Source: Wenjunlia tyrosinilytica
GTDB lineage: Bacteria > Actinomycetota > Actinomycetes > Streptomycetales > Streptomycetaceae
Direction: 5' to 3'
Assembly (NCBI RefSeq): GCF_014646055.1
Contig: NZ_BMMS01000025.1
Span: 62,001 to 126,000, forward strand
Length of the DNA: 64,000 nt
Every line of letters begins with the position of its first letter. Within the stretch, counting starts at the first letter, position 1. Positions 41,927 to 61,100 of the stretch are shown one piece after another. The notes under the pieces were generated by a model. The model made no database searches. It saw only the letters and a list, made by a program, of their open reading frames with translations, and was not told the DNA's origin. The position numbers and the translations under genes are program-made.

Positions 41927-43717
41927 ATGGCCGCGATGGGGACAGGAACCGCCGGGGTGCTGACCTCGGTCACGGGGCTGTCCGCCCGAGGCACCGCCCG
42001 CGAGCGGGCGGCCGCTCTGGAATCGCGGTTCGGGGACCCCGCCGACCCCGACAACCCGCTGGGCCACGAGGCATTCCTGCGGGCCGACGCACGGGCCGAA
42101 CTGCCCGCCGAGGGAGAGCGGCTGCTCGAGCGGTTCGGGTTGAACGCCGAGTTCGTGCCCCGGTCCCTCGGCGGCCGCCTCGACAGCATCGAGGGGCTGG
42201 TCCAGGCCCTGCGCCCGGTCTTCCGCCGGGACGCGTCCCTCGGCATCGGGTACGGCGTCTCGTCGTTCATGGCCGCGGTCAACGCCTGGTTCGCGGGCAC
42301 GCAGGAACAGCGGCGCTTCACCGCCGACCTGTTGCTCGGCGGCGGCCGCATGACGGTCGCCTACCAGGAGATCGCGCACGGCAATGACTTCGTGCGCAAT
42401 GAGTTCCACGCGCGTCGCGGCGGCTCGGGCTTCCTCCTCGACGGCGACAAGCACGTCATCAACAATGTCGAGCGCGCCGAAGCCCTCATGCTGTACGCGC
42501 GAACCGACAAGGCGAAGGGCAGCCGCAGCCATTCGGTTCTGCTGGTCGACAAGGAGCTCGCCCCCGCCGGGCACACCGTCTACCTGCCCCGGCGCATCAC
42601 CAACGGCTGCCGGGGGCTGCAGTTCGGCGGTGTCCAGTACGCGGGGCTGCCGGTGCCCGCCTCGGCCGTGGTGGGAGGCGTCGGACAGGGAGTCGAGCTG
42701 AGCCTGCGCTCGTTCAAGGTCACCCGCAGCGCGCTGCCGTCCATGGTCCTCGCGCTCGTCGACACCTGCCTGCGCACCGCCGTCGGCTTCGCCGGCCGGC
42801 AGAGCCGCGACACGGGCACCGGCATGGACACCCGCAGCTCCCGCTCGGTCCTTGCCGCCGCCTTCGCCGACATCCTGCTCTGCGACAGCCTCGCCCTCGC
42901 CGCGACCCGCTCCGCCAGCCTCCTGCCCAGGCAGAGCAGCGGTGTCTACGCGGCGGCCGTGAAGTACCTGCTGCCGAAGATCCTCACCGAGACCGTCTAC
43001 GACCTGTCGATCATCCTGGGCTCGGCCCTGTACGACAAGGACGGCCCGTACGGGATCTTCCAGAAGCACGTGCGCGACCTGCCGGTCATCACCCTCGGCC
43101 ACGCCGGCACCGCCGCCTGCCAGGCCACGATCATCCCTCAGATGCCGCTGCTGGCACGGGCGGCGTGGTTCCAGGGCGCGCCCGCGCCCGGCGAGCTGTT
43201 CGAGGCCGACGGCCGGCTGCCCCCGCTCAATCTGGAACAGCTGCGGCCCCACGCCGGCCACGACCCCGTCGCCGCCTCCCTGGTGGCCGCCGTCGAGGAC
43301 GACCCCGAGCGCGGCGACGACGGTGAGGACGTCATCCACCGGCTCGCCCAGGGGTTCCTCGCCGAGCTGCGGAGCCTGCGCGACCTCTGCCTGGAGCTGC
43401 GCACCACCGACCCCGCGTGGCTGGCGGGCCCGGAGACGTCGGCGCTGGCCGACCGGTATGTGCACGTCCTCGCCGCCGCCAGTGTCGTGGGCGTGTGGCG
43501 GCAGGAGCGCCGGGTACGGCCCGGCGGCTTCCTCGCCGACCCCGCCTGGGCGGTGACCGCGCTTTCGCGTACAGCAGGACGGCTCGGCGGGCTCCCCGGA
43601 CTCACGGAGCTCCCCGAACCGCCCGCCCACTTCGAGGACCTCATGGTCTCCGAAGTCCTCTCGAGGTTCGGCGAGCCCCGCAGCTACGACCTCTACAACA
43701 GCCCGCTGTCCGGCTGA
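41927..43717 (+). CDS. Acyl-CoA dehydrogenase-like enzyme of the PKS cluster
   Basis: 596 residues, much longer than the usual 380-400. The central dehydrogenase core is visible: FRRDASLGIGYGVSSFMAAVNAWFAGTQEQRRF, TVAYQEIAHGNDF in place of the usual A-TEP loop, and GFLLDGDKHVINNVERAEALMLYARTD. The helical C-domain has FKVTRSALPSMVLALVDTCLRTAVGFAGRQ. About 200 extra C-terminal residues lack an assignment. It heads the operon with the KS-AT-ACP-like protein and the PPTase, so it may oxidise an acyl chain on CoA or on that protein's carrier domain. Start ATG 41927 follows a GGGGGAG-type site. Confidence 0.82.
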   Translation: MAAMGTGTAGVLTSVTGLSARGTARERAAALESRFGDPADPDNPLGHEAFLRADARAELPAEGERLLERFGLNAEFVPRSLGGRLDSIEGLVQALRPVFRRDASLGIGYGVSSFMAAVNAWFAGTQEQRRFTADLLLGGGRMTVAYQEIAHGNDFVRNEFHARRGGSGFLLDGDKHVINNVERAEALMLYARTDKAKGSRSHSVLLVDKELAPAGHTVYLPRRITNGCRGLQFGGVQYAGLPVPASAVVGGVGQGVELSLRSFKVTRSALPSMVLALVDTCLRTAVGFAGRQSRDTGTGMDTRSSRSVLAAAFADILLCDSLALAATRSASLLPRQSSGVYAAAVKYLLPKILTETVYDLSIILGSALYDKDGPYGIFQKHVRDLPVITLGHAGTAACQATIIPQMPLLARAAWFQGAPAPGELFEADGRLPPLNLEQLRPHAGHDPVAASLVAAVEDDPERGDDGEDVIHRLAQGFLAELRSLRDLCLELRTTDPAWLAGPETSALADRYVHVLAAASVVGVWRQERRVRPGGFLADPAWAVTALSRTAGRLGGLPGLTELPEPPAHFEDLMVSEVLSRFGEPRSYDLYNSPLSG

Positions 43718-43811: not shown

Positions 43812-46334
43812 ATGCGCACTGTCGGCTCTGCCAACCGGGCCGGCCTCCGCCTGGCCCCGGCAGCGGATGTGCAGCAGGCCGGTACCTTCCCCAGATCAGG
43901 CCTGTCCGGGGTCTCCGCCGGGGCGGCGGGAGGCATAGCGGTGGTCGGGGTCGACCGCTTCCCATGGGGGAGCAGCGACCAGGACCCGGCGCCGCGGCCC
44001 TTCGGGGCGGGCGGCGCCGAGGCTTTCGACTGCGACTTCTTCTCCCTCTCGCCCCGCGACGCGGGGCAACTGGACCCCCGCCAGCGGGTCCTGCTGCAAT
44101 GCGCCTGGCGGGCGCTGGAGGACGCGGCGATCGCACCCCGGCGGCGTTCGATCGCCGGGACGGGGGTGTTCGTGGAGGCGACGGAAGGGCTTGCGGCGGC
44201 CGGTGACTGGGCGGCCGCGGAGGCCGGACTCGGCGCGGTGGCCCAGTGGATCTCCTACCAACTGGGCCTGAACGGGCCGTCCCTGGACGTGCGGACCGAC
44301 GGCGAGGCCGCCCCGGTCGCCCTGCTCCTCGCCTGCGACGTGCTCGCGGGGCGTGAGTGCGATCTGGCCCTGGTGGCGGGCGCCCGGCTCTCCGAGCTGC
44401 GCACCGCCGACGGCGGCCGGTCCCGGCAGGCGCCCGGCGCCGCGGTGCTCGCCCTGTGCCGCCTCGACGACGCGCTCGCCGACCGCAGGCCCGTCTACGC
44501 CGTGCTGCGCGACAGCACCGACGACCCTTCGGACGAGCCGTGCGGGGGAGTGGTCGACGTGGCGGACTCGGCGCTGGCCCTGTACGGCGGCGGACCCTGG
44601 CGGCTGCCCGCGGGGTCCCTCGCCCCGCTGGACCTCCAGGAGCCGCCCTCGCCGCTGCCCCCGCCGACGACCGACGCCGGGATGGGGGTGTTCACCTTCT
44701 CCGCGGACACCGCGCAGGCACTGAGCCGCAATCTCGCCGAGCACGCCGAGGCCATCGGCGAGGCCATCGGCGAGGCGGCGGGACAGGCGGGCGTCACCGG
44801 CTCGCGGGCGCGCACGGCCCGGCTGTGCTGGACCAGCAACGAGGTCAAGACCGATCTGCCGTACCGCTTCGCCCTGGCCGCCGGGGACCTCGCCGAGCTC
44901 GCGGACGGCCTGCGGCGGGCGGCGCTCGACCCCGCGGTGGAGGCCTCGCTGTCCGGTGTGCCCGAGCAGAGCCCCGCCGTCGCCTACGTCCTGCCGGGCG
45001 AGGGCAGCGAGTACCCCGGAATGACCGCCCGCCTGTACCGGGGCGCGCCGCTGTACCGCAGGGCGCTGGACGAGGCGGACGAGGCCCTGCGCCCCTACTT
45101 CGAGCACCGGGTGCGCGATCTGCTGCTGCGGCACGACACCCGCGTGCACCGGCCGTCGTTCGCGCAGCCCGCCCTGTTCGCGGTGGAGTACGCGCTCGGT
45201 CGCGCGCTGTCCGAACTCGGTGTCGAGCCGGGCATGCTGGTCGGTTACGGATGCGGTGAGTTCGCCGCCGCGTGCCTGGCCGGAGTGCTGGACGTGGAGA
45301 CGGCGGCGCGGCTGGTCAGTGTGCGCGGCAGGCTCGTCGAGGAGCTGCCGCCGGGCGGCCTCCTGGAGGTCTTCACCACGCTGGAGGAGACGGCGGGGCT
45401 GATCCGCGACGAGCCCGAGGTCTACCTCGCAGCCGTCGAGGGGCCCTGCCGAGTGGTGCTGTCCGCGGCCCCCGAGGTGCTGGCGCGCGTCGGCGAGCGG
45501 ATGCGGCTGCAAGGCGTCCACACCAGGGCCCGGGCGGTCGAACACGCCTACCACTCCCCGCTGATGGCGCCCATCATGCGCGAGTGGAGGCGTGCTCTGG
45601 AAGGCGCCGCGTTCGCGCCCGCCCTGATACCCGTCGTCTCGACGGTTCGCGGGCGGCTGCTGGGACGCGACCGCATGGACACCGACTACTGGCTGCAGCA
45701 CGCCATCGCGCCGGTCCGCTTCGCCGAGGCGGCCGAGGCCCTGCTGGCGGAGCGGCCCACCCATGTGCTGGAACTCGGGCCGGGCTCCCGACTTGCCCAG
45801 CACATAAGGGAGATCCCCTCCGCGCGAGGGGTCGGGGTGCGGCCGGTGTGCTCGGACTCCGAGGCCGCCGACGGCGGTCTCGCCGAACTGGCCGCGGCCC
45901 TCTACCGCGATGGGCACAACCTCTCCTGGGAGGCCCTGTACCCGCTGGAGCACCGGGCGTTCGCGCGGCTGCGGCCCTACCGCTTCTCCGCCGAGCGGCA
46001 GTTCGGGCCCGGCACGGGAGCCGACGGCACCGCGGGCGCCCTGCCGGACGAGGCGGTACCACGCGGCACCGCCACCGGGGACAGCTTCGTGGCGGCCGTG
46101 GTGGACGCGGTGGCCCGTGTCTGCGACTGCCTGCCCGGTGAAGTGACGACCGACGCACGCCTTTACGACGACCTGGGATTCGACTCGGTGATGTACATGG
46201 ACCTCGTGGGCGAGCTGGAACGCAGAATCCCGCAGGTCGGCTCGCTCGTCCTGCAGGAGATGATGCCCAGCCTGGAGAGCGTCGAGGCGCTCGCCGGGTA
46301 CCTGCGCCACGTTGCCGGCCGGGTGGCGGCATGA
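43812..46334 (+). CDS. KS-AT-ACP protein with dead KS and AT active sites
   Basis: 840 residues in PKS order. The KS part (about 35-250) keeps the first half of the fold (LSPRDAGQLDPRQRVLLQCAWRALEDA). It has LDVRTDGEAAPVALLLACD where the active-site Cys motif should be and lacks the second half with both catalytic His residues. The AT part (about 395-720) has GYGCGE instead of GHSxGE, so the nucleophile Ser is Gly480 followed by Cys481. AEHAYHSPL-like HAYHSPLM remains. The ACP (about 757-840) is intact, with Ser792 in DDLGFDSVMYM. It probably acts as a carrier/scaffold. ATG 43812 follows GAAGGAGT. The stop overlaps the PPTase start (ATGA). Confidence 0.85.
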   Translation: MRTVGSANRAGLRLAPAADVQQAGTFPRSGLSGVSAGAAGGIAVVGVDRFPWGSSDQDPAPRPFGAGGAEAFDCDFFSLSPRDAGQLDPRQRVLLQCAWRALEDAAIAPRRRSIAGTGVFVEATEGLAAAGDWAAAEAGLGAVAQWISYQLGLNGPSLDVRTDGEAAPVALLLACDVLAGRECDLALVAGARLSELRTADGGRSRQAPGAAVLALCRLDDALADRRPVYAVLRDSTDDPSDEPCGGVVDVADSALALYGGGPWRLPAGSLAPLDLQEPPSPLPPPTTDAGMGVFTFSADTAQALSRNLAEHAEAIGEAIGEAAGQAGVTGSRARTARLCWTSNEVKTDLPYRFALAAGDLAELADGLRRAALDPAVEASLSGVPEQSPAVAYVLPGEGSEYPGMTARLYRGAPLYRRALDEADEALRPYFEHRVRDLLLRHDTRVHRPSFAQPALFAVEYALGRALSELGVEPGMLVGYGCGEFAAACLAGVLDVETAARLVSVRGRLVEELPPGGLLEVFTTLEETAGLIRDEPEVYLAAVEGPCRVVLSAAPEVLARVGERMRLQGVHTRARAVEHAYHSPLMAPIMREWRRALEGAAFAPALIPVVSTVRGRLLGRDRMDTDYWLQHAIAPVRFAEAAEALLAERPTHVLELGPGSRLAQHIREIPSARGVGVRPVCSDSEAADGGLAELAAALYRDGHNLSWEALYPLEHRAFARLRPYRFSAERQFGPGTGADGTAGALPDEAVPRGTATGDSFVAAVVDAVARVCDCLPGEVTTDARLYDDLGFDSVMYMDLVGELERRIPQVGSLVLQEMMPSLESVEALAGYLRHVAGRVAA

Positions 46335-47266
46335 CCGACATGTGGCTCGCCGACGAGCGGGCCCGCGCCCGGCGGGGCGGCCCGCAGCCGCTCTTCCCCG
46401 GCACGCAGTGGCACTCCCCGACGGGGCCGCAGGTGGCGGAGCCGATCCATGTGCGCGGCCCCGCGGGCCCGTGGGACCAGGTCCGGGCGGATCTGGACAC
46501 CCTCGGATGGGCCGTGGTGCACGCCCGCATAGGGGAGTGGCTGCCGGAGAACCCCGACAGCCCCTCGGTGCGGCGCGTCCTGGGCCGTGACTGGGCCCGC
46601 TACGAGAAGATGCGGCACCCGAAGATCAAGGCGAGGTTCGCGGCGACGCGCTCCCTGCTCAAGCACGCCGCGGGGGTGGCGATCGACGCGCCCCCGCACA
46701 GTGTGGAGCTGGGCTACAGCGCGTTCGGCCGGCCCTATCTGCGCGGCTTCGACCAGGTGGACATCAGCCTCAGCCACACCGGTGACTTCCTGCTGGTGGG
46801 ACTCACCACGCGGGGACTGATCGGCGTGGACGCGGAGGCGATCGACCGCCAGCTGCTGAGGGGCGGTACGGAGCAGCACATCTGCACCCCGTACGAGATC
46901 AAGATGCTGGAGCGGGTGCCGGCAGCCCGTAGGAACCGCAGTGCCGTGCGGCTGTGGACGCTCAAGGAGGCGTACAGCAAGGCGATCGGGCAGGGGCTGC
47001 GGTTCAAGTTCACGGAGTTCGGCTTCGGCGAGGACGGCGCGCCGGTGCGGGTCCAGCGCCCGGACGGAACGCCGGGAACCGGTGACGAGTGGACGTTCGC
47101 CACGTTCCACCCGGGCATGCGCCACTGTGCCAGCGTCGCCGTCTTCGACGCGGGCTTCGGCGCTCCCGACGACACCGCGGCCGCCACGATGCTCGACGCG
47201 GGTCTGGTCCACGCGGTGAACGAAATGGTGGCTGAAGCCTGCCAGTCGGGCGAAGCCGCCGCCTGA
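46331..47266 (+). CDS. Sfp-type 4'-phosphopantetheinyl transferase
   Basis: 311 residues, larger than the usual 230-270 because of an N-terminal extension. Signature blocks: VDISLSHTGDFLLVGLTTRGLIGVDAEAID (Mg/CoA-binding GVDAE) and LWTLKEAYSKAIGQGL. It attaches the phosphopantetheine arm from CoA to carrier domains, here presumably those of the KS-AT-ACP protein, the lone carrier and both PKSs. The start codon overlaps the preceding stop (ATGA), so it is translationally coupled to the first carrier it would modify. Confidence 0.92.
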   Translation: MTDMWLADERARARRGGPQPLFPGTQWHSPTGPQVAEPIHVRGPAGPWDQVRADLDTLGWAVVHARIGEWLPENPDSPSVRRVLGRDWARYEKMRHPKIKARFAATRSLLKHAAGVAIDAPPHSVELGYSAFGRPYLRGFDQVDISLSHTGDFLLVGLTTRGLIGVDAEAIDRQLLRGGTEQHICTPYEIKMLERVPAARRNRSAVRLWTLKEAYSKAIGQGLRFKFTEFGFGEDGAPVRVQRPDGTPGTGDEWTFATFHPGMRHCASVAVFDAGFGAPDDTAAATMLDAGLVHAVNEMVAEACQSGEAAA

Positions 47267-47586: not shown

Positions 47587-48930
47587 CTAGAAGCTGGGCT
47601 TGGCCGACGGGGCCTTCAGGTCGCCCAGGTACGGGTGCCACAGGTGCGTCGGGTCCTCCTCGACCGCCTTGACGATGTCCCGCATGGCGGCGAGGGCCTT
47701 GGGCTCCTCGTCGTCGTACACGTCGCCCTGGAGCATCTTCAGGACGTCGAGGCGGTAGCGGTCGTCCTGGACGAACGCGGTGAACAGGATGTTGAGCCGG
47801 TAGTAGATCGAGATGAACTCGTACCAGTTGCTCACACCCCGGCGCAGCTTCTTCTCGTAGGTCGCGAAGCGCTCCTTCTTGAAGTCGCCCGCCTCCGCCG
47901 CCGCGATGATGTCCGCGGAGGCGATCCGGGCGCTGTTGAGCGCGACGCTGACACCGCTGGAGAAGATCGGGTCCACGAAGCGGGCGGCGTCGCCGATGAG
48001 GACGAACTTGTCGCCCGCCACCTGGGACATGCCGTAGCTGTAGTCGCCCTCGGTCTTGAAGCCCTTGACCTGGTCGGCGTTCTTCAGCACGTCCATCAGC
48101 TCGGGACGGCTCGCCACCGTGTCCCAGAAGTACTTCTCACGGTCACCCGCGTACTGCTGGAAGCGGGACTTCTGGCTCACCACACCGATCGATGTGATGG
48201 TCTCGGTGATCGGGATCTGCCAGACCCAGGTGTCGGAGACGGGCAGGAAGTGGATGAAGATGTAGTCCGCCTGGTCCTTGTTGACCGCCAGGGCCTTGCG
48301 GTCCAGGCCGTCGAACCACGTGTGCACCGCGTACTGGTTGAACACCGGGTCCGGGATCTTGAACTTGAGCTGGTTGCCGAGCTTGGTCTGCCGACCGCTC
48401 GCGTCCACGACCATGCGCACGGGGAAGTCGACCTGGTGGCTGCCGACCTTCGCCTGGATCACCGGGTTCTCGCCGCTGAAGTCGACGTTGGAGACGCGCA
48501 CGCCCTGGAAGATCTTGGCGCCGAGCTCCTCGGCGTGCTTGAGCAGGATCGCGTCGAACTTCGAACGGTCGACGTGGAACGTGTAGTCGCGGTCCACGCC
48601 CTCCTGGTCGCGCTCGCTGAAGAGGATCTCAGCGGCGCGGAAGTCGTGCGTCAGGCCGCGGAACCCGTTGTGGTCGATATTGCGGTCCTCCGCCGAGGTC
48701 CACGCGGCACCGAACTTCTTGGGGAAGTTCGCCGCCTCGATCTTGTCCATGGCTCCGATCTCGAGCAGGACAGGAGTTGTCGCCGGAACGAGGGACTCTC
48801 CCACGTGGTCCCGCGGAAACGTGTCGCCCTCGAACAGGACGACCGACAGGCCCGCTTTGGCCAGGTAGGAAGCAGCGGTCGAGCCCGCAGGGCCTCCGCC
48901 GATGATGCCGATGTCGAACTCTGCGTCCAC
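47587..48930 (-). CDS. Flavin-dependent halogenase
   Basis: 447 residues. The FAD-binding GGGPAGSTAASYLAKAG is at the N-terminus, and FPRDHVGESLVPATTPVLLEIG follows. The halogenase fingerprint W-x-W-x-I-P appears as WVWQIPI near residue 225, and VLIGDAARFVDPIFSSGVSVAL is the second flavin motif. Such enzymes make hypohalous acid from FADH2, O2 and chloride or bromide and halogenate electron-rich rings or enolisable positions, often on carrier-bound substrates. The adjacent lone carrier supports that. An FAD reductase is not seen. GTG 48930 follows GGAGAG. The frame upstream to 49035 lacks homology and overlaps the carrier gene. Confidence 0.9.
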   Translation of the reverse strand: MDAEFDIGIIGGGPAGSTAASYLAKAGLSVVLFEGDTFPRDHVGESLVPATTPVLLEIGAMDKIEAANFPKKFGAAWTSAEDRNIDHNGFRGLTHDFRAAEILFSERDQEGVDRDYTFHVDRSKFDAILLKHAEELGAKIFQGVRVSNVDFSGENPVIQAKVGSHQVDFPVRMVVDASGRQTKLGNQLKFKIPDPVFNQYAVHTWFDGLDRKALAVNKDQADYIFIHFLPVSDTWVWQIPITETITSIGVVSQKSRFQQYAGDREKYFWDTVASRPELMDVLKNADQVKGFKTEGDYSYGMSQVAGDKFVLIGDAARFVDPIFSSGVSVALNSARIASADIIAAAEAGDFKKERFATYEKKLRRGVSNWYEFISIYYRLNILFTAFVQDDRYRLDVLKMLQGDVYDDEEPKALAAMRDIVKAVEEDPTHLWHPYLGDLKAPSAKPSF

Positions 48931-49009
48931 GACGCTCTCCACTTCTGGACGGTTGGGACTGCTGGTGCTGTTCGGTGCTTCGGGCTGGACTGTGGCGGGG
49001 CCCAGTGGG

Positions 49010-49282
49010 TCAGGCAGGCTGGAGGGACAGCTCATAGACCATGTCCGTGATGGTCTCGACGCTGTAGAAGTGCCGGCCGGTGATGTGGGTCGGGGGGATG
49101 GTCACCCCGAGTTCGGTCCTGATGTACGTCAGCAGGATGGACGTGTTCATGGAGTTGAGCACGCCCCACTCCAGCAGCGGGGTGTCCGGCTTCAGTTCGG
49201 AGATCTCGCTGTCGTCGAGGAACTGCTCCTGGATGTACGCGTTGAGCTTGGTGTAGATCTCGTCGCGGCTGGTGGCCGTCAC
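49010..49282 (-). CDS. Free-standing acyl carrier protein
   Basis: 90 residues. The carrier four-helix pattern is clear, with the phosphopantetheine site in LLEWGVLNSMNTSILLTYI, where NSM replaces the usual DSL/DSM. It ends HITGRHFYSVETITDMVYEL. It lies directly upstream of the halogenase gene on the same strand (79 bp between its stop and the chosen halogenase start) and probably holds the substrate that is halogenated. GTG 49282 follows GGGGAGGA. It could also be a peptidyl-type carrier loaded by an enzyme encoded outside the window. Confidence 0.85.
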   Translation of the reverse strand: MTATSRDEIYTKLNAYIQEQFLDDSEISELKPDTPLLEWGVLNSMNTSILLTYIRTELGVTIPPTHITGRHFYSVETITDMVYELSLQPA

Positions 49283-50613: not shown

Positions 50614-51480
50614 TCACTCCCTCGAGGAAGCGACCACCCGCCGTGCCCGCAGGTCCGCGGCGCGCGCGGGCTCCGCCACCGAGCCCGCACCCGCCGTCCC
50701 CGAGCCCGCCGCCCCCGAGCCCGCCGCCGCTGGGGCCGCCGCGACCAGGCGCGAGAGCCGGGACGTCAGCGCCTCGCGGAAGTCGGGTTCCTCGAGGAAG
50801 AAGTGGCCACCCGGGATCAGGGCGAGTTCGAAGGCGCGTGAGGTCTCCCGTTCCCACGCGACGAGCCCAGCCGGGTCGGTCAAGGAGTCCCGGCGGCCGC
50901 CGAAGGCGACCAGGGGGACGTCGAGCGGCGGTCCCGCCGGGCGGGTGTAGGTCTCCACGATCTCCAGGTCCGCGCGCAGCGCCGGAAGGTACATGCGCAG
51001 CAGCTCCGGCTGGTCGAGCAGCGCCTGCGGCATCCCGCCGTAACGGTTCAGCGCCGTGATGAAGGCGTCGTCCGGCAGCTTGTGGATCGGCCGGTGGGAC
51101 AGCGGCTCGCCGGGTCCATTGCGGCCGGAGACCAGCAGAGCGGCGGGCGGCAGTCCGAGCTGGTCCAGGCGCCGTGCGAGCTCGTAGGCCAGCACGGCCC
51201 CGAAGCTGTGGCCGAAGAGCGCGAACCTCTCGCCGCGGTGCGGGCGCATGGTGCGCACGAGTTCGGCGGCCAGGAGATCGGCGCGGCGCATCAGCGGCTC
51301 GCGGATGCGTGCGCCGTGGCCCGGCAGTTCCAGCGGTGTCACCGTCACCGACGGCGGAACGATCGCGTTCCACCGGCTGTACGGCATCGCGCTGCCCCCG
51401 GCGTGCGCCAGGCAGTACAGCGTCAGCTTCTCCCCGTCGGCGCCCGGCTCACCGGGCTCGCGGGGCGTGGGTGGATTCAA
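50614..51480 (-). CDS. Type II thioesterase (editing hydrolase)
   Basis: 288 residues, alpha/beta hydrolase of the external thioesterase class. LYCLAHAGGSAMPYSRWN starts the fold, the nucleophile Ser is in ALFGHSFGAVLAYELARRL, the Asp is expected in FGGRRDSLTD, and the His is in IPGGHFFLEEPD. It removes wrong acyl groups from carrier domains. With several carriers whose ATs look dead, it may be important. Residues after 240 are an Ala/Gly-rich extra tail. TTG 51480 follows GGAGGG, and no better start exists in frame. It is divergent from the first large PKS gene. Confidence 0.9.
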   Translation of the reverse strand: MNPPTPREPGEPGADGEKLTLYCLAHAGGSAMPYSRWNAIVPPSVTVTPLELPGHGARIREPLMRRADLLAAELVRTMRPHRGERFALFGHSFGAVLAYELARRLDQLGLPPAALLVSGRNGPGEPLSHRPIHKLPDDAFITALNRYGGMPQALLDQPELLRMYLPALRADLEIVETYTRPAGPPLDVPLVAFGGRRDSLTDPAGLVAWERETSRAFELALIPGGHFFLEEPDFREALTSRLSRLVAAAPAAAGSGAAGSGTAGAGSVAEPARAADLRARRVVASSRE

Positions 51481-51597
51481 GAGCCCTCCCTGTAAACGTC
51501 GCGGGTGCGGGGACGGGGCCGCTCTCAAGTCTCGCGCAAGCGGCCTGGGCAACCTTTGCCAGCGCACTCGTCGTACCTCTGATGTTAACCCACAGAA

Positions 51598-51639: not shown

Positions 51640-54600
51640 ATGTCTGAGCCGACAGCGCGGCGCGAGGCCGGAAAGAGCCGCCAGTCAGGACCCGGGGGAA
51701 TCCCCGCACCCCGTCAGGACGACATCGCTGTCGTCGGCGTCGGATGCCGCTTCCCCGGCGGCGTCCGCGATGTCGACACCTTCTGGGACGTCCTTCTCGA
51801 GGGCCGGGACATCGTGGCGCCGGTCCCGTCGGACCGCTGGGACGAGAGCTTCTTCCACGACGACCCCAAGAACCCCGGCACCACGTACTGCCGCGAGGGC
51901 GGCTTCCTCACCGACATCGACCGCTTCGACGCGGAGTTCTTCGGCATCTCGCCCCGCGAGGCCCGGGAGATGGACCCCCAGCAGCGGCTCCTGCTCGAGG
52001 TCTCCTGGCAGGCCATGGAGGACGCCGGGGTGCCGAGGGAGCGCTGGCACGGCAGCCGCACCAGCGTCCACATGGGCATCCTGGGCTCCGACTACCTTCT
52101 CCTGCACACCAAGGCCGCGGGCACCGAGACGATCGACCCCTACTTCGCCAGCGGCAAGGAGTTCAGCTTCGCCGCCGGGCGCATCGCCTACACCTTCGGG
52201 CTGCACGGCCCCACGATGTCGGTGAACACCGCGTGCTCCTCCTCCCTCGTCGCCGTGCACCTGGCCTGCCAGAGCCTGCGCAGCGGCGAGGCCGACACCG
52301 CCCTGGCCGGCGGTGTCAACGCGATCATCACTCCCGAGCTCACCGTGTTCATGGGCAAGGTGCAGGCGCTGTCGCCCACCGGCCGCTGCAAGCCGTTCGA
52401 CGCCCGCGCCGACGGGATCGTGCGCGGTGAGGGGTGCGGTGTCGTCGTCCTCAAGCGGTACGCCGACGCCCTGCGCGACAACGACCAGGTCTACGGCGTC
52501 ATCCGCGGCACCGCGGTCAACCAGGACGGGCACAGCGCCGGCCTGACCGCTCCCAACGCCCTTGCGCAGCAGGCCCTGCTGCGCACCGCGCTGGAGTCCG
52601 CCGGACTCGGCCACGAGATGCCCTCGTACGTAGAGGCGCACGGAACCGGTACCCCGCTCGGCGACCCACTGGAGATCTCCGCCCTCACCGAGGTCATCGG
52701 CAGGCACCGCCCCGAGGACCGCCGCCTGATCGTCGGCTCGCACAAGGCGAACTTCGGCCACATGGACTCCGCGGCCGGTATCGCGGGCCTGCTCAAGACC
52801 CTGATGGTGCTGCGCCACCGCACCGTCCCGCCGCAGATCCACCACAAGCACCCCTCGCCGCTGGTCGACTGGGAGCGCTCGGGGATCACCGTCCCCACCG
52901 TGCCCACCCCGCTGCCCACGGTGGACGGCCACGCGGTCAACGGGGTCAGCGCGTTCGGTCTGTCCGGCACCAACGCCCATGTCCTGGTCTCCACTCCGCC
53001 CGAGCCCTCCACCCGCAAACGCGCCAAGGCACAGCGGCAGCCCGCCCCGCGGACGCTGCTCGTCTCCGCGTCCAGCGCCGAGGGCCTGGAACAGCTCGCG
53101 GGCGACTACCGGCGGGCGCTCAGCGGATCGCCCTGGACGGGCACCCGCACCGCCTCGCCGGACGCGGTGCTGGCGGCCGCCGCCGTGCGCCGAACCCACC
53201 ACCGGCACCGCCTCGCCGTCGTCGGCGACACCACCGAGGAACTCGCCGAGGCACTGGAGGCCTTCCGCACCGGGGAGCGGCGGGCCGGGGCGATCTCCGG
53301 CGAGGCCGAGGACCGGATCGGCAAGGTGGTCCATGCCTTCTCCGGCCAGGGCTCGCAGTACCCGGGTGTGGCCATGGACCTCTACGGGTCGGAACCTGTC
53401 GTACGCGAGACGCTGGACGAGTGCGACGCGCTCCTGCGCGAGCATGCCGACTGGTCCCTGCTCGACGTCCTGCGGGACGAGGACCCGGCACGCGTCAAGG
53501 CCACCGAGGTGGCCCAGCCCGCGCTCTTCGCCGTCCAGATCGCGCTGTCGCGGTTGTGGCGGTCGTGGGGAGTGGTCCCCGACGCCGTGATCGGCCACAG
53601 CATGGGCGAGGTGGCCGCCGCCGTCGTCGCGCAGGCGCTGACCCTGCCCGAGGCCGCCCGCCTCATCGTGGAGCGGGGCCGTCTGATGCAGCGGGCCACC
53701 GGCTCCGGCCGGATGGTCGCGGTGGAGCTGAGCGCCGCAGAGGTCGTCAAACGTCTCGGCGGGCGCTACCCCGAGGTGAGCGTGGCCACCGTCAACGGCC
53801 CGACATCCGTGGTGATCGCGGGCCCTCCCGCCCCGGTCGAGGGAGCGGTCGGCGAGCTGCGCCGCAGCGGCGCCAACGCGGTGCCGCTGCCCGTGGACTA
53901 CGCCTTCCACCACCCGCTGATGCGCGGCTACGGCGACGAACTCGAGGCGTTCCTGGCCGACCTGACGCCGTCGGCGCCCACCGTGCCGTTCCTTTCCACG
54001 GCCACGCGGGAGGAGACGGCGCCGCCGCTGGACGCGGCCTACTGGGGCCGCAATCTGCGTGATCCCGTCCTGTTCTGGCCGGCCGTGGACCGCCTGCTGA
54101 CCGCGGGAAACGCCGTCTTCGTCGAGATCGGCGCCCACCCCGTGCTCGGACGGCCCGTACAGGCCGCCCTGACCCAGCGGGGCCGACTCGGCCCCGTCGT
54201 CGGCTCGCTGGCCCGCGGCAAGGCGGGTGCGACCACCCTCGCGCAGGCCAGGGCCAAGCTGCACGTGGCCGGAGTGGGCATCGACTGGCAGGGGTTCTTC
54301 CCCCAGCCGGTGAGCCCCGTCGGCCTGCCGCCGCACCGCTGGGCCGACCAGCGCTACTGGCTCTCGGGTGTCGAGCGCGGCCGCCAGACCAACGGGGGAC
54401 TGCTGCGCTCGGACGGACTGCGGGCCGAGGTCCGGCTGTTCGACGCCCGGGGAAGGCTGGTCGGGGAGCTGGCCGGGGCCTCGGTGGTGAGTGACACCGC
54501 CGCGCCCGCCGCCCCCACCGCCGCGCCCGCCGCCCCCGCCCTGGCTGCCCCCGCCCCGGCCGCCGCCGCACCCGTCGTCCCCGCCCCGTCCGCCCCCGCT

Positions 54601-57600
54601 CCGGTCGCCGCACCCGTCGTCCCTGCCACGGCCGCCGCACCTGTGGCCCCCGTGAGCCCCGCCCCCGAGGCGACCGCGCCCGCGGTCCCCGCCGACGGAT
54701 ACCAGCGCGACGAGGTCGCCGCCGCCGTGCAGAGCGCGCTGGCCGTCGTCCTGGGGCACCCCCCGGGCCAACGCCTGCCCCGCCAGCGCGGGTTCTTCGA
54801 GCTGGGCATCGACTCGATCTCCGTCTCCGAGCTCGCCCGCCGGGTGCAGGACGCGCTCGGCTGCCCGCTCGACGGCGCGGACGTCCTGTCCCACGCGAGC
54901 ATCGAGGCGCTGACCGACTACATCCTGACCCTCCAGCCGGAGCCGCCGGCCCAGCCGTCAGCGGTGTCCGGCGCGGTGCCCGCCTCGTTCGCGGGGGCGG
55001 CTGCCGCGCAGCCGCCGACCGGCCCCGAGCCGATCGCGATCGTCGGCATCGGGCTGCGCGTGCCGGGCGGAGCCGACAGTCCCGAGTCGTTCTGGCGCCT
55101 GCTCGAGGACCGTACCGACGCCACGGGCGATGTCCCGCTGGAGCGCTGGGACGCCGCGTCCCTGCTCGCCGACGGCAAGGTCGGAGCGGGCCGGGTGGCC
55201 ACCAAGCGCGGCGCGTTCCTCGACGCGGTGGACGGCTTCGACCACGGCTTCTTCCGGATCTCCCCGCGCGAGGCCCGCAGCATGGACCCGCAGCAGCGGC
55301 TCTTCCTCGAAGTGGCCTGGGAGTCGCTGGAGGACGCGGGTATCGCGGTCGACACACTGCGTGGAGGCCGCACCGGCGTGTTCGTCGGCCTCAACACCAC
55401 GGACTACACGCAGCTGGTGACGCGCAGCCAGAACGACATCGACCTCTATTACGGCACCGGCAACTCCTTCAGCGGCGCCGCGGGACGGCTGTCCTACTTC
55501 CTCGGGGTGCGCGGTCCCAGCATCGCCGTCGACACCGCGTGCTCCTCCTCGCTGACGGCCGTGCACCTGGCCTGCCAGAGCCTGCGGGCGGGGGAGAGCG
55601 AGGTGGCGCTCGCGGGCGGGGCCAATGTGATGTCCACACCGACGGTCTTCCTGGCCATGTCGGCGGCCGGAGCGCTGGCCCCCGACGGCCGCTGCAAGAC
55701 GTTCGACGACTCCGCCGACGGCTACGGCCGCGGCGAGGGCGCGGGTGCACTGGTTCTCAAGACGCTGTCGAGGGCCACTCGCGACGGTGACCGGGTGTAC
55801 GCGGTCATTCGCGGCAGCGCCGTCAATCAGGACGGGGCGAGCGGCGGTCTGACGGTGCCCAGCGGCGAGGCCCAGGAAGAGGTCATCAGGACCGCCCTGG
55901 ACCAGGCCGGCATGGGCCCGGACGACATCGACTACATCGAGGCGCACGGCACCGGCACCCGGCTGGGCGACGCCATAGAACTGCGGGCCCTGGCCGGGGC
56001 GGTGGGACAGCGCAGGCCGTTCGCCAAGCCGTTGCTCGTCGGCTCCGTCAAGACCAACGTGGGCCACCTCGAGGCGGCCGCCGGAGTCACCGGTCTGATC
56101 AAGATCGTGCTGTCGCTGAGGCACGAGGAGATCCCCGCCCATCTGCACGTCTCCCGGCCCACCCGCCAGGTCGCCTGGGACCGGCTGCCGCTGAAGGTCG
56201 TCACCGAGCCCACACCCTGGCCCGTGGGAGAGCGCCCGCGCAGCGCGGGGGTCAGCGCGTTCGGCTTCACCGGCACCAACGCCCATGTCGTGGTGCAGGA
56301 GGCGCCTGCCCCGGCGACGGCCGGGGGACGGCCCGTGCCGGACTCGCGCCCGCTGGTGCTCACCTCCTCCGCGCTGACGCCCGCCGCACTGCGCGCCGCG
56401 GCGGCCAGGCTGCGGGAACGTGTCGCCGGTGCCGACGAGGCCGAACTGGCCGATCTGTGCTGGGTCTCCGGAGCGCGGCGCACCCACCACGAGCACCGGT
56501 TCGCCGTGACCGGCCGCACCCGGGCGGAACTGCTCGACGGCATCGCGTCCGTGGAGCGGGGCGAGAGCGCCGAGGGCGTTCGCGTCGGCACCGCCCGGCC
56601 GGGGGAGTTCCGGCGGCTGGCCGTGATGTACGGCGCCGCCGCACCCGCCCTGCCCTGGGCGCGGCTGCTCGGGGACGCCCCCGCCGACGACGGCCTCTCG
56701 CCCGAGGCCGTACTCGGCGGTGCGGAACGGCTCGCGGCCTTCCGCTCCACCGTCACCGACCTGGACGCCGCACTGCGGGACGCCGTCGGCATCTCCCCGG
56801 TGCGGGCGTGGGAGTCGGGGGAGAGGCCGCGGAGCGGCTCCCTCCACGAGCGCGCCCTGGTCTTCGCCGGGCATCTGGCGGCCACCGCCGTCCGCGCGGC
56901 GATCGGCATCCACCCCGACGCGGTGGTCGGCCACGGCGTCGGCGAACTCGCCGCCGCCCACGCGGCGGGTGAGCTCGAACTCGCCGAGGCGGTGCGGATG
57001 CTGGCCGAGGAGCGGACACCGGGCGACCTCGGCAAGCCGGGAACGCTGCCCCGGTACTCCACCGAGGGCGGCTGGCCGGGCCTGGCGAACCAGCTCGTCG
57101 AGGACGGTATCGAAGCCCTGCTGGACATCGGCAGCGGCAGCCCCTCCGTGGCGATGCTGCGCTCCGCGCTCCAGGCACGCGACGCCGAGGTGCTGGTGCT
57201 CACCGCCCCCGCCGGACAGGCGGGCGCGGCCACTTCCGCGCCGACCGCGGTGGGCGACCTGATGACGGACGCGGCGGCCCTGCATGTGCACGGCTGCCGG
57301 ATCGACTGGGACCTGCTGATCCCCGGCGGGCACCGCCTGGTCTCGCTGCCGGGCTACCCGTGGCAGCGCAAGCGCCACTGGATAGAGCTGCCCAAGGACA
57401 CCTCCGCCCCCGTGGCGCCCCCGAAGCCCGCTCCCGCGCCGTCGGCCGTCGGCCCCCTGCCGTACAGCGGCTCGCTCAGCGGCACCTCCACGAACGGCAG
57501 CCCCACGACCGGCAGCCCCGCCAACGGGAGTCCGGCCCACGGGAGCCCCGCCGACGAGGGTTCGGCCAACGGCAGTGCGGCCCATGCGACCCCGGCCAAC

Positions 57601-58116
57601 GGCAGCGCGTTCGACGAACCCCCGGCCGCCTCGGTGAACGTGAGCCCCGCCGACCCCGACGCGACCCCGCTGGTCGCCGAGCTCACCCCCCTCGGCCCGG
57701 AGGACCGGCGGGAGCGGATGCTCGACGTCATCCTCGCCATGGTGGCCGCGGTACTCGGCGGCGACGACGACATCGGCCCCGACCAGGGCTTCTTCGACCT
57801 GGGCCTGGACTCGGTGCTCGGCGCCGAGCTCAAGCAGCGCGCCGAGGAGGCACTGGGCCGCGAACTGCCCGGCACCGTCATGTTCGAGTGCCCCAACGCC
57901 CGTTCCTTCGCCGACTTCGTCCTCGACGACGTCTTCGGCGAACCCCAGACCGCGCCGGGAGCCGACGAGGCCATCCCGCACGACAGCGCGACACCCGCAC
58001 CCGGGGGCGACCCCGAGGACGGACTGGACGATCTCAGTGACGACGCACTGATGGGACGTCTGCTCTCCGCGCTCTCCAGCTCCGAATCAATGCTGACCGA
58101 GGGAGACCGACCATGA
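51640..58116 (+). CDS. Type I PKS: KS-AT-ACP-KS-(inactive AT)-ACP
   Basis: 2158 residues, two modules, no reductive domains. KS1 (about 27-445) has Cys199 in TACSSS, EAHGTGT and ANFGH. AT1 (about 560-880) has Ser654 in GHSMGE and YAFHHP in place of the HAFH/YASH specificity motif, so malonyl-CoA is likely but not certain. ACP1 Ser1059 is in GIDSIS. KS2 (about 1127-1550) has Cys1301 and is complete. AT2 (about 1660-1915) is shortened and reads GHGVGE, with Gly1766 in place of Ser, so it cannot load ACP2. ACP2 Ser2058 is in GLDSVLG. Low-complexity Ala/Pro and Ser/Asn/Gly linkers precede each ACP. ATG 51640 follows GGGGGGAG. The stop overlaps the next PKS start. Confidence 0.93.
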   Translation: MSEPTARREAGKSRQSGPGGIPAPRQDDIAVVGVGCRFPGGVRDVDTFWDVLLEGRDIVAPVPSDRWDESFFHDDPKNPGTTYCREGGFLTDIDRFDAEFFGISPREAREMDPQQRLLLEVSWQAMEDAGVPRERWHGSRTSVHMGILGSDYLLLHTKAAGTETIDPYFASGKEFSFAAGRIAYTFGLHGPTMSVNTACSSSLVAVHLACQSLRSGEADTALAGGVNAIITPELTVFMGKVQALSPTGRCKPFDARADGIVRGEGCGVVVLKRYADALRDNDQVYGVIRGTAVNQDGHSAGLTAPNALAQQALLRTALESAGLGHEMPSYVEAHGTGTPLGDPLEISALTEVIGRHRPEDRRLIVGSHKANFGHMDSAAGIAGLLKTLMVLRHRTVPPQIHHKHPSPLVDWERSGITVPTVPTPLPTVDGHAVNGVSAFGLSGTNAHVLVSTPPEPSTRKRAKAQRQPAPRTLLVSASSAEGLEQLAGDYRRALSGSPWTGTRTASPDAVLAAAAVRRTHHRHRLAVVGDTTEELAEALEAFRTGERRAGAISGEAEDRIGKVVHAFSGQGSQYPGVAMDLYGSEPVVRETLDECDALLREHADWSLLDVLRDEDPARVKATEVAQPALFAVQIALSRLWRSWGVVPDAVIGHSMGEVAAAVVAQALTLPEAARLIVERGRLMQRATGSGRMVAVELSAAEVVKRLGGRYPEVSVATVNGPTSVVIAGPPAPVEGAVGELRRSGANAVPLPVDYAFHHPLMRGYGDELEAFLADLTPSAPTVPFLSTATREETAPPLDAAYWGRNLRDPVLFWPAVDRLLTAGNAVFVEIGAHPVLGRPVQAALTQRGRLGPVVGSLARGKAGATTLAQARAKLHVAGVGIDWQGFFPQPVSPVGLPPHRWADQRYWLSGVERGRQTNGGLLRSDGLRAEVRLFDARGRLVGELAGASVVSDTAAPAAPTAAPAAPALAAPAPAAAAPVVPAPSAPAPVAAPVVPATAAAPVAPVSPAPEATAPAVPADGYQRDEVAAAVQSALAVVLGHPPGQRLPRQRGFFELGIDSISVSELARRVQDALGCPLDGADVLSHASIEALTDYILTLQPEPPAQPSAVSGAVPASFAGAAAAQPPTGPEPIAIVGIGLRVPGGADSPESFWRLLEDRTDATGDVPLERWDAASLLADGKVGAGRVATKRGAFLDAVDGFDHGFFRISPREARSMDPQQRLFLEVAWESLEDAGIAVDTLRGGRTGVFVGLNTTDYTQLVTRSQNDIDLYYGTGNSFSGAAGRLSYFLGVRGPSIAVDTACSSSLTAVHLACQSLRAGESEVALAGGANVMSTPTVFLAMSAAGALAPDGRCKTFDDSADGYGRGEGAGALVLKTLSRATRDGDRVYAVIRGSAVNQDGASGGLTVPSGEAQEEVIRTALDQAGMGPDDIDYIEAHGTGTRLGDAIELRALAGAVGQRRPFAKPLLVGSVKTNVGHLEAAAGVTGLIKIVLSLRHEEIPAHLHVSRPTRQVAWDRLPLKVVTEPTPWPVGERPRSAGVSAFGFTGTNAHVVVQEAPAPATAGGRPVPDSRPLVLTSSALTPAALRAAAARLRERVAGADEAELADLCWVSGARRTHHEHRFAVTGRTRAELLDGIASVERGESAEGVRVGTARPGEFRRLAVMYGAAAPALPWARLLGDAPADDGLSPEAVLGGAERLAAFRSTVTDLDAALRDAVGISPVRAWESGERPRSGSLHERALVFAGHLAATAVRAAIGIHPDAVVGHGVGELAAAHAAGELELAEAVRMLAEERTPGDLGKPGTLPRYSTEGGWPGLANQLVEDGIEALLDIGSGSPSVAMLRSALQARDAEVLVLTAPAGQAGAATSAPTAVGDLMTDAAALHVHGCRIDWDLLIPGGHRLVSLPGYPWQRKRHWIELPKDTSAPVAPPKPAPAPSAVGPLPYSGSLSGTSTNGSPTTGSPANGSPAHGSPADEGSANGSAAHATPANGSAFDEPPAASVNVSPADPDATPLVAELTPLGPEDRRERMLDVILAMVAAVLGGDDDIGPDQGFFDLGLDSVLGAELKQRAEEALGRELPGTVMFECPNARSFADFVLDDVFGEPQTAPGADEAIPHDSATPAPGGDPEDGLDDLSDDALMGRLLSALSSSESMLTEGDRP

Positions 58117-61100
58117 CGACGACGCAGAGCGGCCCGGTTCAGCATGACTACCGGCCCCAGCTCGTCGAGGCCCTGCGCACCATCGAGCGCCTGCAGGACC
58201 GCCTGAAGAACGCCCGCCCTCAGCCCCTCAACGAGCCCATCGCCATCGTCGGCCTCGGCTGCCGCCTGCCGGGCGGCGCCGACGCCCCCGAGTCCTTCTG
58301 GCGGGTGCTGCGCGGCGGGGTGGACACGACCTCCGAGTTCCCACCCGAGCGCGGTGACGCCTCCGCCCTGTACGACCCCGATCCCGACGCGCCCGGCAAG
58401 GCCTATGTCATGCGCGGCGGATTCCTCGGCAGGGTCGACCGGTTCGAGCCCTCGGTCTTCGGCATATCCCCGCGCGAGGCGCTGGGCATGGACCCCCAGC
58501 AGCGCATCCTCCTCGAGGTCGCGTGGGAGGCGCTGGAGCGCGCCGGATACGCCCCCGACAGCCTCAACGGGAGCTCCACCGGCGTCTTCCTCGGCCTGAG
58601 CACCACCGACTACGCGCGGATGCGGCAGAGCCAGGGCGACATCCGCGACGTGGACGCCTACCAGCTCGTCGGCGAGCCCAGCTTCGCCGCGGGCCGTATC
58701 TCCTACACCCTCGGCCTCCAGGGGCCCTGCAAGGTCGTCGACACCACCTGCTCCTCCTCACTGGTGGCGCTGCACGAGGCCTGCCAGGCGCTGCGTCTCG
58801 GCGAGGCAGACATGGCCCTGGCCGGCGGTGTGAACCTCATGCTCTCGCCGTACGGCTTCGTGATGATGAGCAAGTTCGCGGGGCTGTCGCCCGAGGGCCG
58901 GTGCAAGACGTTCGACGCGAGCGCCGACGGCTACGCCCGCGGTGAGGGCGCCGGGCTCGTGGTGCTCAAGCGCTGGTCCGACGCGGTCCGCGACGGCGAC
59001 AACGTCATCGCCCTGGTCCGCGGCACGGCGGTCAACCACGACGGCCGCAGCAGCGGGCTCACCGTTCCCAACCCGGCCGCGCAGCAGGGCGTCATCAAGG
59101 CCGCCCTCACCCAGGCCGGGATCGCCCCCGGCGACGTCGACTACGTCGAGGCGCACGGCACCGGCACCTCGCTCGGCGACCCGATCGAGCTGCGCGCGCT
59201 GGAGGCGGTCATCGGCCGCAACCGCCCCGAGGGGGCCCCGCTGCTCGTCGGCTCGGTGAAGACCAACATCGGCCACCTGGAGTCGGCGGCCGGTGTCGCG
59301 GGCCTGCTCAAGCTGGTGCTCGCCCTCCAGCACGGCGAGATCCCGCCGCACCTGCACTTCAACGAGCCCAACCCGAACGTCGACTGGAGCAAGCTGCACA
59401 TCGAGGTCACGGCCGAGGGGACCGCCTGGCCCGACGTCGAGGGCCGCCCGCGCATCGGCGCGATCAGCAGCTTCGGCGCCAGCGGAACCAACGCGCACGC
59501 CGTGGTCAGCTCCGTCCCCGAGGCGGGCACCGGGCCCAGCCCCGCCCGGGTCCAGCACCCCCACGGTGTCCTGGTCGCCTCCGCCAACAGCGAGGAGGCG
59601 CTGACCGAGGTGGCCCGCAAGTTCGCCCTCCACCTGCGCCGCGACCCCGACATCACGCTTGCCGACGCCTGCTACACCACCCAGGTCGGACGGGCCCGGC
59701 AGACCCACGGCCTGGCCGTGGCCGGGGACTCGCTCGAGGGCCTCGCCGACGCCCTCGAGGCCCACGCGCGCGGCGAGCGCGACCCGCGCCTGGTGACCGG
59801 CAGGCTCCCGGTGCACAAGCACCGCAAGGTGGCCTGGATGTTCACCGGCCAGGGCTCCCAGTACGCCGGAATGGCGCAGGGCCTCGCCGACGAACCCGCG
59901 TTCCGCGAGCCGTTCGACGAATGCGCGGCACTGTTCGACGCCGCCCTGGACCGTCCGCTCACCTCGGTGGTCTGGCCCGCGGAGGGCACCGAGTCGCCGA
60001 TCGACGACACCCGCTACACCCAGCCCGCCCTCTTCGCCGTCGAGTACGCGCTCGCCCGGATGTGGCAGTCCTGGGGACTGAAGCCGATCGCCCTGCTCGG
60101 GCACAGCATCGGCGAGATCGCCGCGGCCTGCGTGGCCGGGGTCTTCGGCCTCGAGGACGCCGTCCGCCTGGTCACCGCCCGCGCGGCTCTCATGGCGCAG
60201 CTGCCCGCCGGCGGAGTGATGGCCGCGGTCACCTGCGACGAGGCCACGGCACTGGCGGCCATCGCCGATCTGACCGGGACCGTCTCCCTCGCCGCGGTCA
60301 ACGGCCCCGAGAGCGTGGTCGTCTCGGGAGCGAAGGACGACGTCGCCACCGCGGTCGCGCGGCTGAAGGAGCAGGGGGTGCGGGCCCAGAACCTCACCGT
60401 CTCGCACGCCTTCCACTCCCCGCTGCTCGCCCCGATGCTGGAGGAGTTCCGGCAGATCGCGCGGAGCATCAGCTACTCGGCCCCGGCCATCCCGCTCATC
60501 TCCAACGTCACCGGCAGGCCCTGGTCCGCGCAGGACCTGGGCCCCGAGTACTGGGTGCGCCACGCCGCCGGGACCGTCCGCTTCCTCGACGGCCTGGGCA
60601 GCCTCTACGGCGACGGCATCCGCACCTTCCTCGAGGTCGGGCCGCAGCCCGTCCTGCTGGGCCTGGGCAACCGCGCCATCGAGGACCCCGACTGCGCCTG
60701 GATCCCGTCGCTGCGCCGCCCGGTCCGTGCCCGCGGCGGCTCCGGGAAGACGCTGCACGACCGGTCCGCCGTCCGCCAGGCACTGGGCACCCTGCACCTG
60801 CGCGGCACGGCCGTCGACTGGGCCGCCGTCCACAAGGGCGAGCAGCTGCGCCGCGTCCCGCTCCCGGCCACCGTGTGGCGCGGCGAGTCCTACTGGTTCG
60901 AGGAGCGCCGCGACGACGCCGGCGGCGCCTCGGCGCCGGAGCGCCCGGCCGGGATCGACGTCCCCGGCGTGGGACGCCGGCTGCGCAGCGCCGTGCCGAC
61001 GTACGAGGTCTCGCTGGACGACCCCAGCTGGGAGCCGTACATCCGCACCGACCACGAGGGGCGCCGCTACCTGCCCATGGGCGCGCTGGCCAAGGTGGTC

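Follow-up and report, generated by a model that had tools for sequence, protein, structure and literature searches.

The stretch of DNA analyzed here, called the window throughout, comprises 64,000 bp of the Wenjunlia tyrosinilytica genome (contig NZ_BMMS01000025.1, positions 62,001 to 126,000). At 43812..46334 (+) it encodes P0001, a protein of 840 amino acids that translation, Pfam, and alignment identify as a degenerate protein composed of ketosynthase (KS), acyltransferase (AT), and acyl carrier protein (ACP) regions. Judged by active-site residues, the KS and AT of P0001 are dead, and the ACP is the sole part with a plausible chemical role. On an evenly balanced judgment, the ACP works only as a carrier beside a KS and an AT that have ceased to function; we favor this over the view of P0001 as a vestigial passenger among its neighbors.

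The KS remnant occupies about residues 62-257 (43995..44582, +), as delimited by Pfam, alignment, and predicted local confidence (pLDDT). Pfam recovers a partial N-terminal domain only (residues 68-195, profile positions 67-205 of 252), and the KS C-terminal domain was not found by Pfam in P0001. In the alignment, Gly164, within the stretch LDVRTDGEAAP that begins at residue 158, stands in the column of the catalytic Cys, and 65 conserved KS columns are deleted. The AT domain (residues 390-680; 44979..45851, +), delimited by Pfam, motifs, alignment, pLDDT, and structure comparison, matches Pfam over residues 392-668 with 154.5 bits against a cut-off of 32.7. The GHSxGE motif of active malonyl/acyl transferases is replaced by GYGCGE, beginning at residue 478; Gly480 (codon 45249-45251) takes the place of the nucleophilic Ser in an alignment without gaps, and Cys481 follows it. 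The ACP domain (46077..46331, +), recognized from PF00550 (residues 762-824), invariant columns, and pLDDT, carries LGFDSV from residue 788, which provides the phosphopantetheine attachment site at Ser792 (codon 46185-46187). In an alignment with 30 related KS-AT-ACP proteins, P0001 is missing the Cys and both His motifs of the KS and the Ser of the AT, and retains the AT His (in HAYHSPLM) and the ACP Ser; AT residues His581 and Arg505 are present. A preliminary description of this DNA, made from the sequence alone, had reported the loss of the KS Cys motif and catalytic His region, a Gly followed by Cys at the AT nucleophile, and an intact ACP signature. All three are confirmed, and the realigned frame contains neither an intact KS Cys nor an intact AT Ser.

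P0001 belongs by sequence to a family of discrete KS-AT-ACP proteins found in Streptomycetaceae, within which it is divergent. At least 42 of 394 sampled Streptomycetaceae genomes (the W. tyrosinilytica genome included) match it at E≤1e-75, with the two best first-look candidates scored per genome. Family places share homology through the linker, AT, and ACP and score 273-382 bits at this cut. Within the W. tyrosinilytica genome, the runner-up to P0001 itself is a KS-AT-ACP protein encoded on contig C12 (321.7 bits, 42% identity), ahead of a discrete AT on the same contig (234 bits) and of PKS (polyketide synthase) modules, none of which exceeds 178 bits. Motifs were read for the W. tyrosinilytica paralogue L002 and 29 further loci, together making up 30 of the 46 remaining places, and at five more, drawn from a further 392 genomes (two candidates scored each, E≤1e-105), all five with KS Cys and AT Ser intact. 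The KS Cys and the ACP Ser are each present in 35 of these 35 relatives and the AT Ser in 33, the exceptions being L002 and L028, which have Gly. P0001 alone has a broken KS. All 30 aligned relatives have a complete Cys-His-His KS and 28 have the Ser of the AT Ser-His dyad, of which P0001 keeps only the His. Tyr replaces the AT His in L002, and L205 gave no match to the AT His pattern. A close orthologue of P0001 was not found by scanning genome contigs with P0001 or in the 392 further genomes.

The length of the open reading frame had earlier been taken to imply selection. Length is poor evidence here, because the antisense strand of this G+C-rich stretch is also open, over 804 codons (43896-46310, -). 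Stronger evidence lies in the alignment of the P0001 frame with the family, which runs along its whole length without a frameshift, and in codon-position composition: six of seven segments look clearly coding (G+C at second positions, GC2, 0.41-0.61; at third positions, GC3, 0.88-0.97), the exception being the first 54 residues (GC2 0.67, GC3 0.82). Sequencing error was considered as a source of the changes and is unlikely, since the frame aligns with the family from end to end; the Ser-to-Gly change, moreover, recurs in L002 and L028.

Structure prediction gave different outcomes for the KS and the AT of P0001. In an AlphaFold model built from 31 aligned sequences (mean pLDDT 69.0, pTM 0.50), pLDDT in blocks of ten residues is 81-98 in the AT, 34-86 in the KS fragment, and 57-86 in the ACP; the AT fold thus looks intact, whereas the KS remnant is patchy. 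The modeled AT superimposes on PKS AT structures with VIA-align Z scores of 42-43 and a root mean square deviation (rmsd) of 2.0-2.2 over 310-328 residues. Over both domains, the tied top structural matches include the KSQ-AT loading didomains GfsA and PikA1 (Z 43, rmsd ~11), in which the KS Cys is changed too. KSQ decarboxylases keep a full KS with Gln in place of Cys, whereas P0001 has Gly at that position (Gly164), large deletions that leave the C-terminal half of the KS missing, and an inactive AT.

Decay is uneven across the domains. A reference set of 27 relatives (without L002, L003, L028, and L040) served to define columns with 95% conservation or more; of these, P0001 keeps 35/56 in the N-terminal part of the KS, 61/74 in the AT, and 12/13 in the ACP; leave-one-out minima among the 27 relatives are 0.90, 0.92, and 0.86, respectively. 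By Fisher tests the KS differs from the AT (p = 0.015) and from the ACP (p = 0.049), and no difference was detected between the AT and the ACP (p = 0.68). The corresponding counts are 54/56, 64/75, and 12/13 for L002 and 54/56, 71/75, and 13/13 for L028. Positions lost from the AT of P0001 include Gln571 and Gln574 (of GQGxQ), His653, Ser654, and Asn718 (L012 numbering). L028, with an intact KS and no Cys after its Gly, shows parallel changes: Ser to Gly, His to Tyr (HS to YG), and Asn to Asp. Tree inference separates P0001 and L002, implying at least three losses of the AT Ser; an approximately unbiased (AU) test does not reject joining the two (p = 0.151), and fewer losses would be needed if they were sisters.

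These comparisons bear on the idea, raised in the preliminary description, that the AT retains activity by using Cys481, next after the missing Ser, as its nucleophile. His581 and Arg505 are present, the model fold is intact, and L002, the paralogue on contig C12, shares GxGCGE; however, the gap-free alignment puts Gly in the place of Ser and Cys at a position otherwise held by Val, Ile, or Leu. Among the 31 aligned proteins the neighboring Cys occurs only in P0001 and L002, in both of which the Ser has already given way to Gly, and L002 has lost the catalytic His as well. P0001 has changed further at Gln571, Gln574, His653, and Asn718, and the parallel changes in L028 without a Cys point to loss rather than to a new nucleophile. 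The idea is unsupported and we consider it very improbable. L002 itself (L010:10184-13369, -) has an intact KS, but its AT is missing both the Ser (GHGCGE) and the catalytic His (HAHYSPL).

P0001 lies between an acyl-CoA dehydrogenase-like (ACAD) protein of 596 amino acids, ACADw (41927..43717, +), and an Sfp-type phosphopantetheinyl transferase (PPTase; 46331..47266, +; PF01648). The PPTase start overlaps the P0001 stop as ATGA (46331-46334), as the coupling noted earlier would have it. Pfam finds ACAD domains in ACADw, with the middle one falling slightly short of its cut-off, and alignment and tree place the protein in ACADb, one of the two types (the other being ACADa) that accompany the family. 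In 20 kb around each of 20 relatives ACADb was found in 20/20 and ACADa in 17/20, together with fatty acyl-AMP ligase (FAAL) in 14/20 and PPTase in 16/20, the last two from a cruder gene call able to miss genes. Single relatives add FkbH (310.8 bits) with FAAL (L047), a FabH-like protein with an alpha/beta hydrolase (L041), and an E2-like acyltransferase (PF00198; L053), all by profile search; this gene set presumably resembles that of tetronate assembly. P0001 is like the synthases of these FAAL-ACADa-ACADb cassettes in linker, AT, and ACP (40-49% identity) and has the same ACADb and PPTase neighbors, but differs in lacking the KS Cys and His residues, the AT Ser, and any FAAL, ACADa, FkbH-, FabH-, or E2-like gene next door. 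One cassette, at L028/L056 in genome G043, combines FAAL, ACADa, and ACADb with a synthase whose KS is intact and whose AT motif is GYGVGE.

Ordinary acyl-CoA dehydrogenases carry their catalytic Glu in YEGT. Among 30 ACADb and 19 ACADa sequences aligned, all 19 ACADa have FDGN, with Asp at this position, whereas 29 of the 30 ACADb sequences, among them ACADw, show GHAG or GHSG there, the remaining one, L132, being too diverged to call; at the alternative Glu position (WERAC in the PltE-like protein) ACADb have Thr or Ser. On this alignment ACADw is without a carboxylate at the usual catalytic position. Only the ACADb type was found in the cluster of the window, and ACADa was not seen there, which weakens the earlier suggestion that the carrier offers an acyl chain to the dehydrogenase next to it. 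Heteromeric acyl-CoA dehydrogenases with one catalytic subunit are known (PMC8399759). The alpha2beta2 enzymes ChsE4/5 and Scd1AB resemble ACADa/ACADb as adjacent pairs in which one member lacks the catalytic carboxylate; the window cluster differs in showing the noncatalytic type only, and a heteromer would be putative. ACADa genes are present on contig C12 of W. tyrosinilytica, and it is possible that ACADw is partnered in trans by one of them. A further adjacent ACAD gene pair lies at L196 (C18:138396-141904) in the same genome.

The strongest point in favor of a carrier comes from related clusters. To the right of the PPTase lies a pyrrolyl halogenase gene (47587..49035, -), and the slot between ACADb and PPTase was surveyed at 70 loci (L194 being a chance match), several of which end near the halogenase (e.g., L126, L135, and L162) and do not show absence. 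An ACADb-like gene stands beside the halogenase in six of the 70 (L125, L128, L129, L130, L131, and L132), with G361 and the window as two further cases. The slot holds a lone ACP-sized match to the family ACP at five: L130 (= G322; Streptomyces sp. DI166), L128 (YS415), L129 (S. cupreus), L131 (TRM68416), and G361. Four of the six loci thus have a lone ACP, and two have nothing detectable: L125, from Wenjunlia vitaminophila (formerly named Actinosporangium vitaminophilum), and L132, from S. oceani. The lone ACPs of G322 and L131, the two of the five whose sequence was read, have ...LLREDLGFDSVLIMQLKYRVEQAVPELG..., like the family ACP; they share the ACP family and slot of P0001 and differ from it in standing alone, with neither KS nor AT attached. 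Upstream in the lone-ACP clusters are a FAAL gene and one for a discrete AT-like protein. In the tree, the eight ACADb sequences of pyrrole clusters form one group (support 84/77, with L132 on a long branch), which favors, with moderate support, a single recruitment followed by loss.

The carrier or scaffold role first proposed for P0001 is therefore the one we prefer, with confidence no higher than even, since five sister clusters keep a family ACP between ACADb and PPTase. P0001 would be a degenerate copy of a discrete KS-AT-ACP synthase from the FAAL/ACAD cassettes, and the ACADb-(KS-AT-ACP)-PPTase block most likely entered a pyrrolomycin-type cluster jointly. The KS would then have been broken by deletions and the loss of its Cys and His residues, and the AT would have kept its fold and lost its nucleophile. 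The intact ACP should be phosphopantetheinylated by the coupled PPTase, and P0001 would work only as an acyl carrier, its AT shell and KS fragment forming a passive scaffold, in parallel with the sister clusters in which a stand-alone ACP fills the slot.

Several observations weigh against a retained carrier. The strongest of them is that W. vitaminophila is without P0001, so the gene is not conserved in the pathway and a pyrrolomycin cluster can do without it; the ACADb-PPTase gap there is 205 bp with no ACP-sized coding frame, and searches of the gap for a P0001 remnant (tblastn, blastn) gave no match better than E 0.049. Nothing was detectable in the slot of S. oceani either, and no FAAL gene was seen near P0001. 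The lone-ACP clusters need not descend from a KS-AT-ACP protein, because their discrete AT matches the PKS2 of the cluster better (31-33%) than it does the family. No match above 49% identity to P0001 was found in the sampled genomes. The ACP decay test is based on 13 columns; L002, with its KS intact, nearly equals P0001 in AT losses (64/75 kept); and relaxed constraint may reach the AT and ACP of P0001 as well, because its end branch in the AT-ACP tree is long (1.23 versus a median of 0.28).

The main alternative is a history in which the block moved in, only the PPTase is still needed, and P0001 and ACADb are decaying in place, P0001 persisting because its overlap with the PPTase start at 46331-46334 makes frameshifts costly. 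We hold this to be a serious possibility, if the lesser of the two. It fits the ACADb without the usual catalytic carboxylate and without an ACADa beside it, and the W. vitaminophila cluster, which keeps ACADb and PPTase and not P0001; the other FAAL locus of that species is also without ACADb and KS-AT-ACP. Between the two species ACADb is 61% identical, as against 77% for the PPTase and 84-85% for the halogenase, but the ACADb value is in line with the thioesterase (59%), first PKS (64%), and TetR (65%). Decay in place is also at odds with the coding composition of P0001, kept save for its first 54 residues; with the AT fold and 61 of 74 AT invariants retained; and with the ACP kept as a separate gene in five sister clusters, which looks like selection for the ACP. 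The PPTase of the cluster may itself be dispensable, as there are eight other PF01648 places in the W. tyrosinilytica genome.

By gene content, the locus is a pyrrolomycin/pyoluteorin-type cluster. The halogenase is of the Mpy16/PltA type; its closest PDB matches by phmmer include 5buk (752.8 bits), which we take to be Mpy16, 5dbj (PltA, 656.3 bits), and ChlB4. It is followed by a PltL-like peptidyl carrier protein (PCP) of 90 amino acids (49010..49282, -; PDB phmmer, PltL 71.8 bits), a stand-alone thioesterase (50614..51567, -; PF00975), and two PKSs. The first (51640..58116, +) has two KS-AT-ACP modules, the second with a short AT in which GHGVGE replaces GHSxGE; the second (58113..64000, +, continuing past the window end), described from motifs only, shows motifs for KS, AT, ketoreductase (KR), and ACP and, at its C terminus, the reductase-like LLTGATGFVG. 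Also downstream lie a PltF-like proline ligase (442.7 bits), a PltE-like dehydrogenase (C25:137835-138881; 401.7 bits against the RedW model, whose cut-off is 650), a flavin reductase, and two more halogenase-like genes by Pfam, of which L009:8745-10406 matches tetracycline 7-halogenase and PltM; a third related frame (L009:12942-15206) is a weak family match. The genes for pyrrolyl-PCP formation and halogenation are thus present, the PltE-like match falling under the RedW cut-off. The pyr, plt, mcs, and mpy clusters share with the window the pyrrolyl halogenase, the PltL, PltF, and PltE types, the thioesterase, two type I PKSs, and a PltM-like halogenase; the window differs in its ACADb-P0001-PPTase block. 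The account of the mcs cluster in section 10 of PMC12670696 mentions no such block, and a title cited in that paper indicates that W. vitaminophila is the source of a published pyrrolomycin cluster.

A role for ACADw and P0001 in converting prolyl to pyrrole, in place of PltE and PltL, was considered and dropped when the PltL-like PCP and PltE-like dehydrogenase were found. With PltF-, PltL-, and PltE-like proteins of its own, the cluster can plausibly make the pyrrole starter without ACADw or P0001. For the same reason, the cargo of the P0001 ACP is probably something other than the pyrrole.

The defective module 2 of the adjacent PKS raises the question of whether P0001 serves as its trans-delivery carrier, which we regard as unlikely. 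Of 10 clusters covered by a motif scan, 8 (G000, from W. tyrosinilytica; G001, from W. vitaminophila; G359, G352, G112, G322, G361, and G116) showed no GHSxGE in the module 2 AT of their first PKS, while G259 and G372 keep GHSMGE; PMC10142417 describes armeniaspirol as likewise having a dichloropyrrole starter and three modules, with a 2-alkylmalonyl extender. However, four clusters in which no ACADb/ACP block turned up next to the halogenase (G359, G352, G112, and G116) also show the dead second AT, as does W. vitaminophila, from which P0001 is absent; in addition, P0001 itself has no active AT, and no carboxylase was seen in the cluster. Slightly less likely again is a split system, in which the P0001 ACP would carry a chain from the C12 FAAL, the C12 ACADa and cluster ACADb would desaturate it, and the PKS with the dead AT in module 2 would yield an alkylated pyrrolomycin. 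The reductase-like motif ends the last PKS in six of the eight clusters with a dead second AT; G001 matches by full-length alignment, and G116 has none.

Literature searches for an inactive KS and AT with an ACP, and for inactive domains with a halogenase, found nothing, and no title on P0001 was among the matches listed for topics including FAAL, ACAD, and tetronates. The interest of P0001 is as part of a decay series; it is no new kind of system. With its relatives it forms a natural series from an intact KS-AT-ACP protein, through a dead AT with an intact KS and both domains dead, to a lone ACP and to absence, showing how a multidomain synthase may shrink to its carrier and providing an ordered group of proteins in which to probe the remaining contribution of a dead AT/KS shell to an ACP. 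The ACADb/ACP pair also matters for antibiotic clusters, where annotation would call an active dehydrogenase and a PKS.

Three minor observations concern other loci. Halogenase matches L083, L091, and L094 (genomes G066, G137, and G070) each contain one stop (TAG/TGA), perhaps upstream of the true start. A W. vitaminophila locus, L195 (C25:1-20000), which matches the W. tyrosinilytica C12 locus (L010), encodes a FAAL together with an ACP-like frame and an ACADa that has diverged (LDGAT); neither ACADb nor KS-AT-ACP was found at L195, and the only ACADb match in that species is in the pyrrolomycin cluster. Elsewhere on contig C12 of W. tyrosinilytica, a discrete AT with GYSIGE (L011:7728-8744, -) is a possible trans-acting AT.

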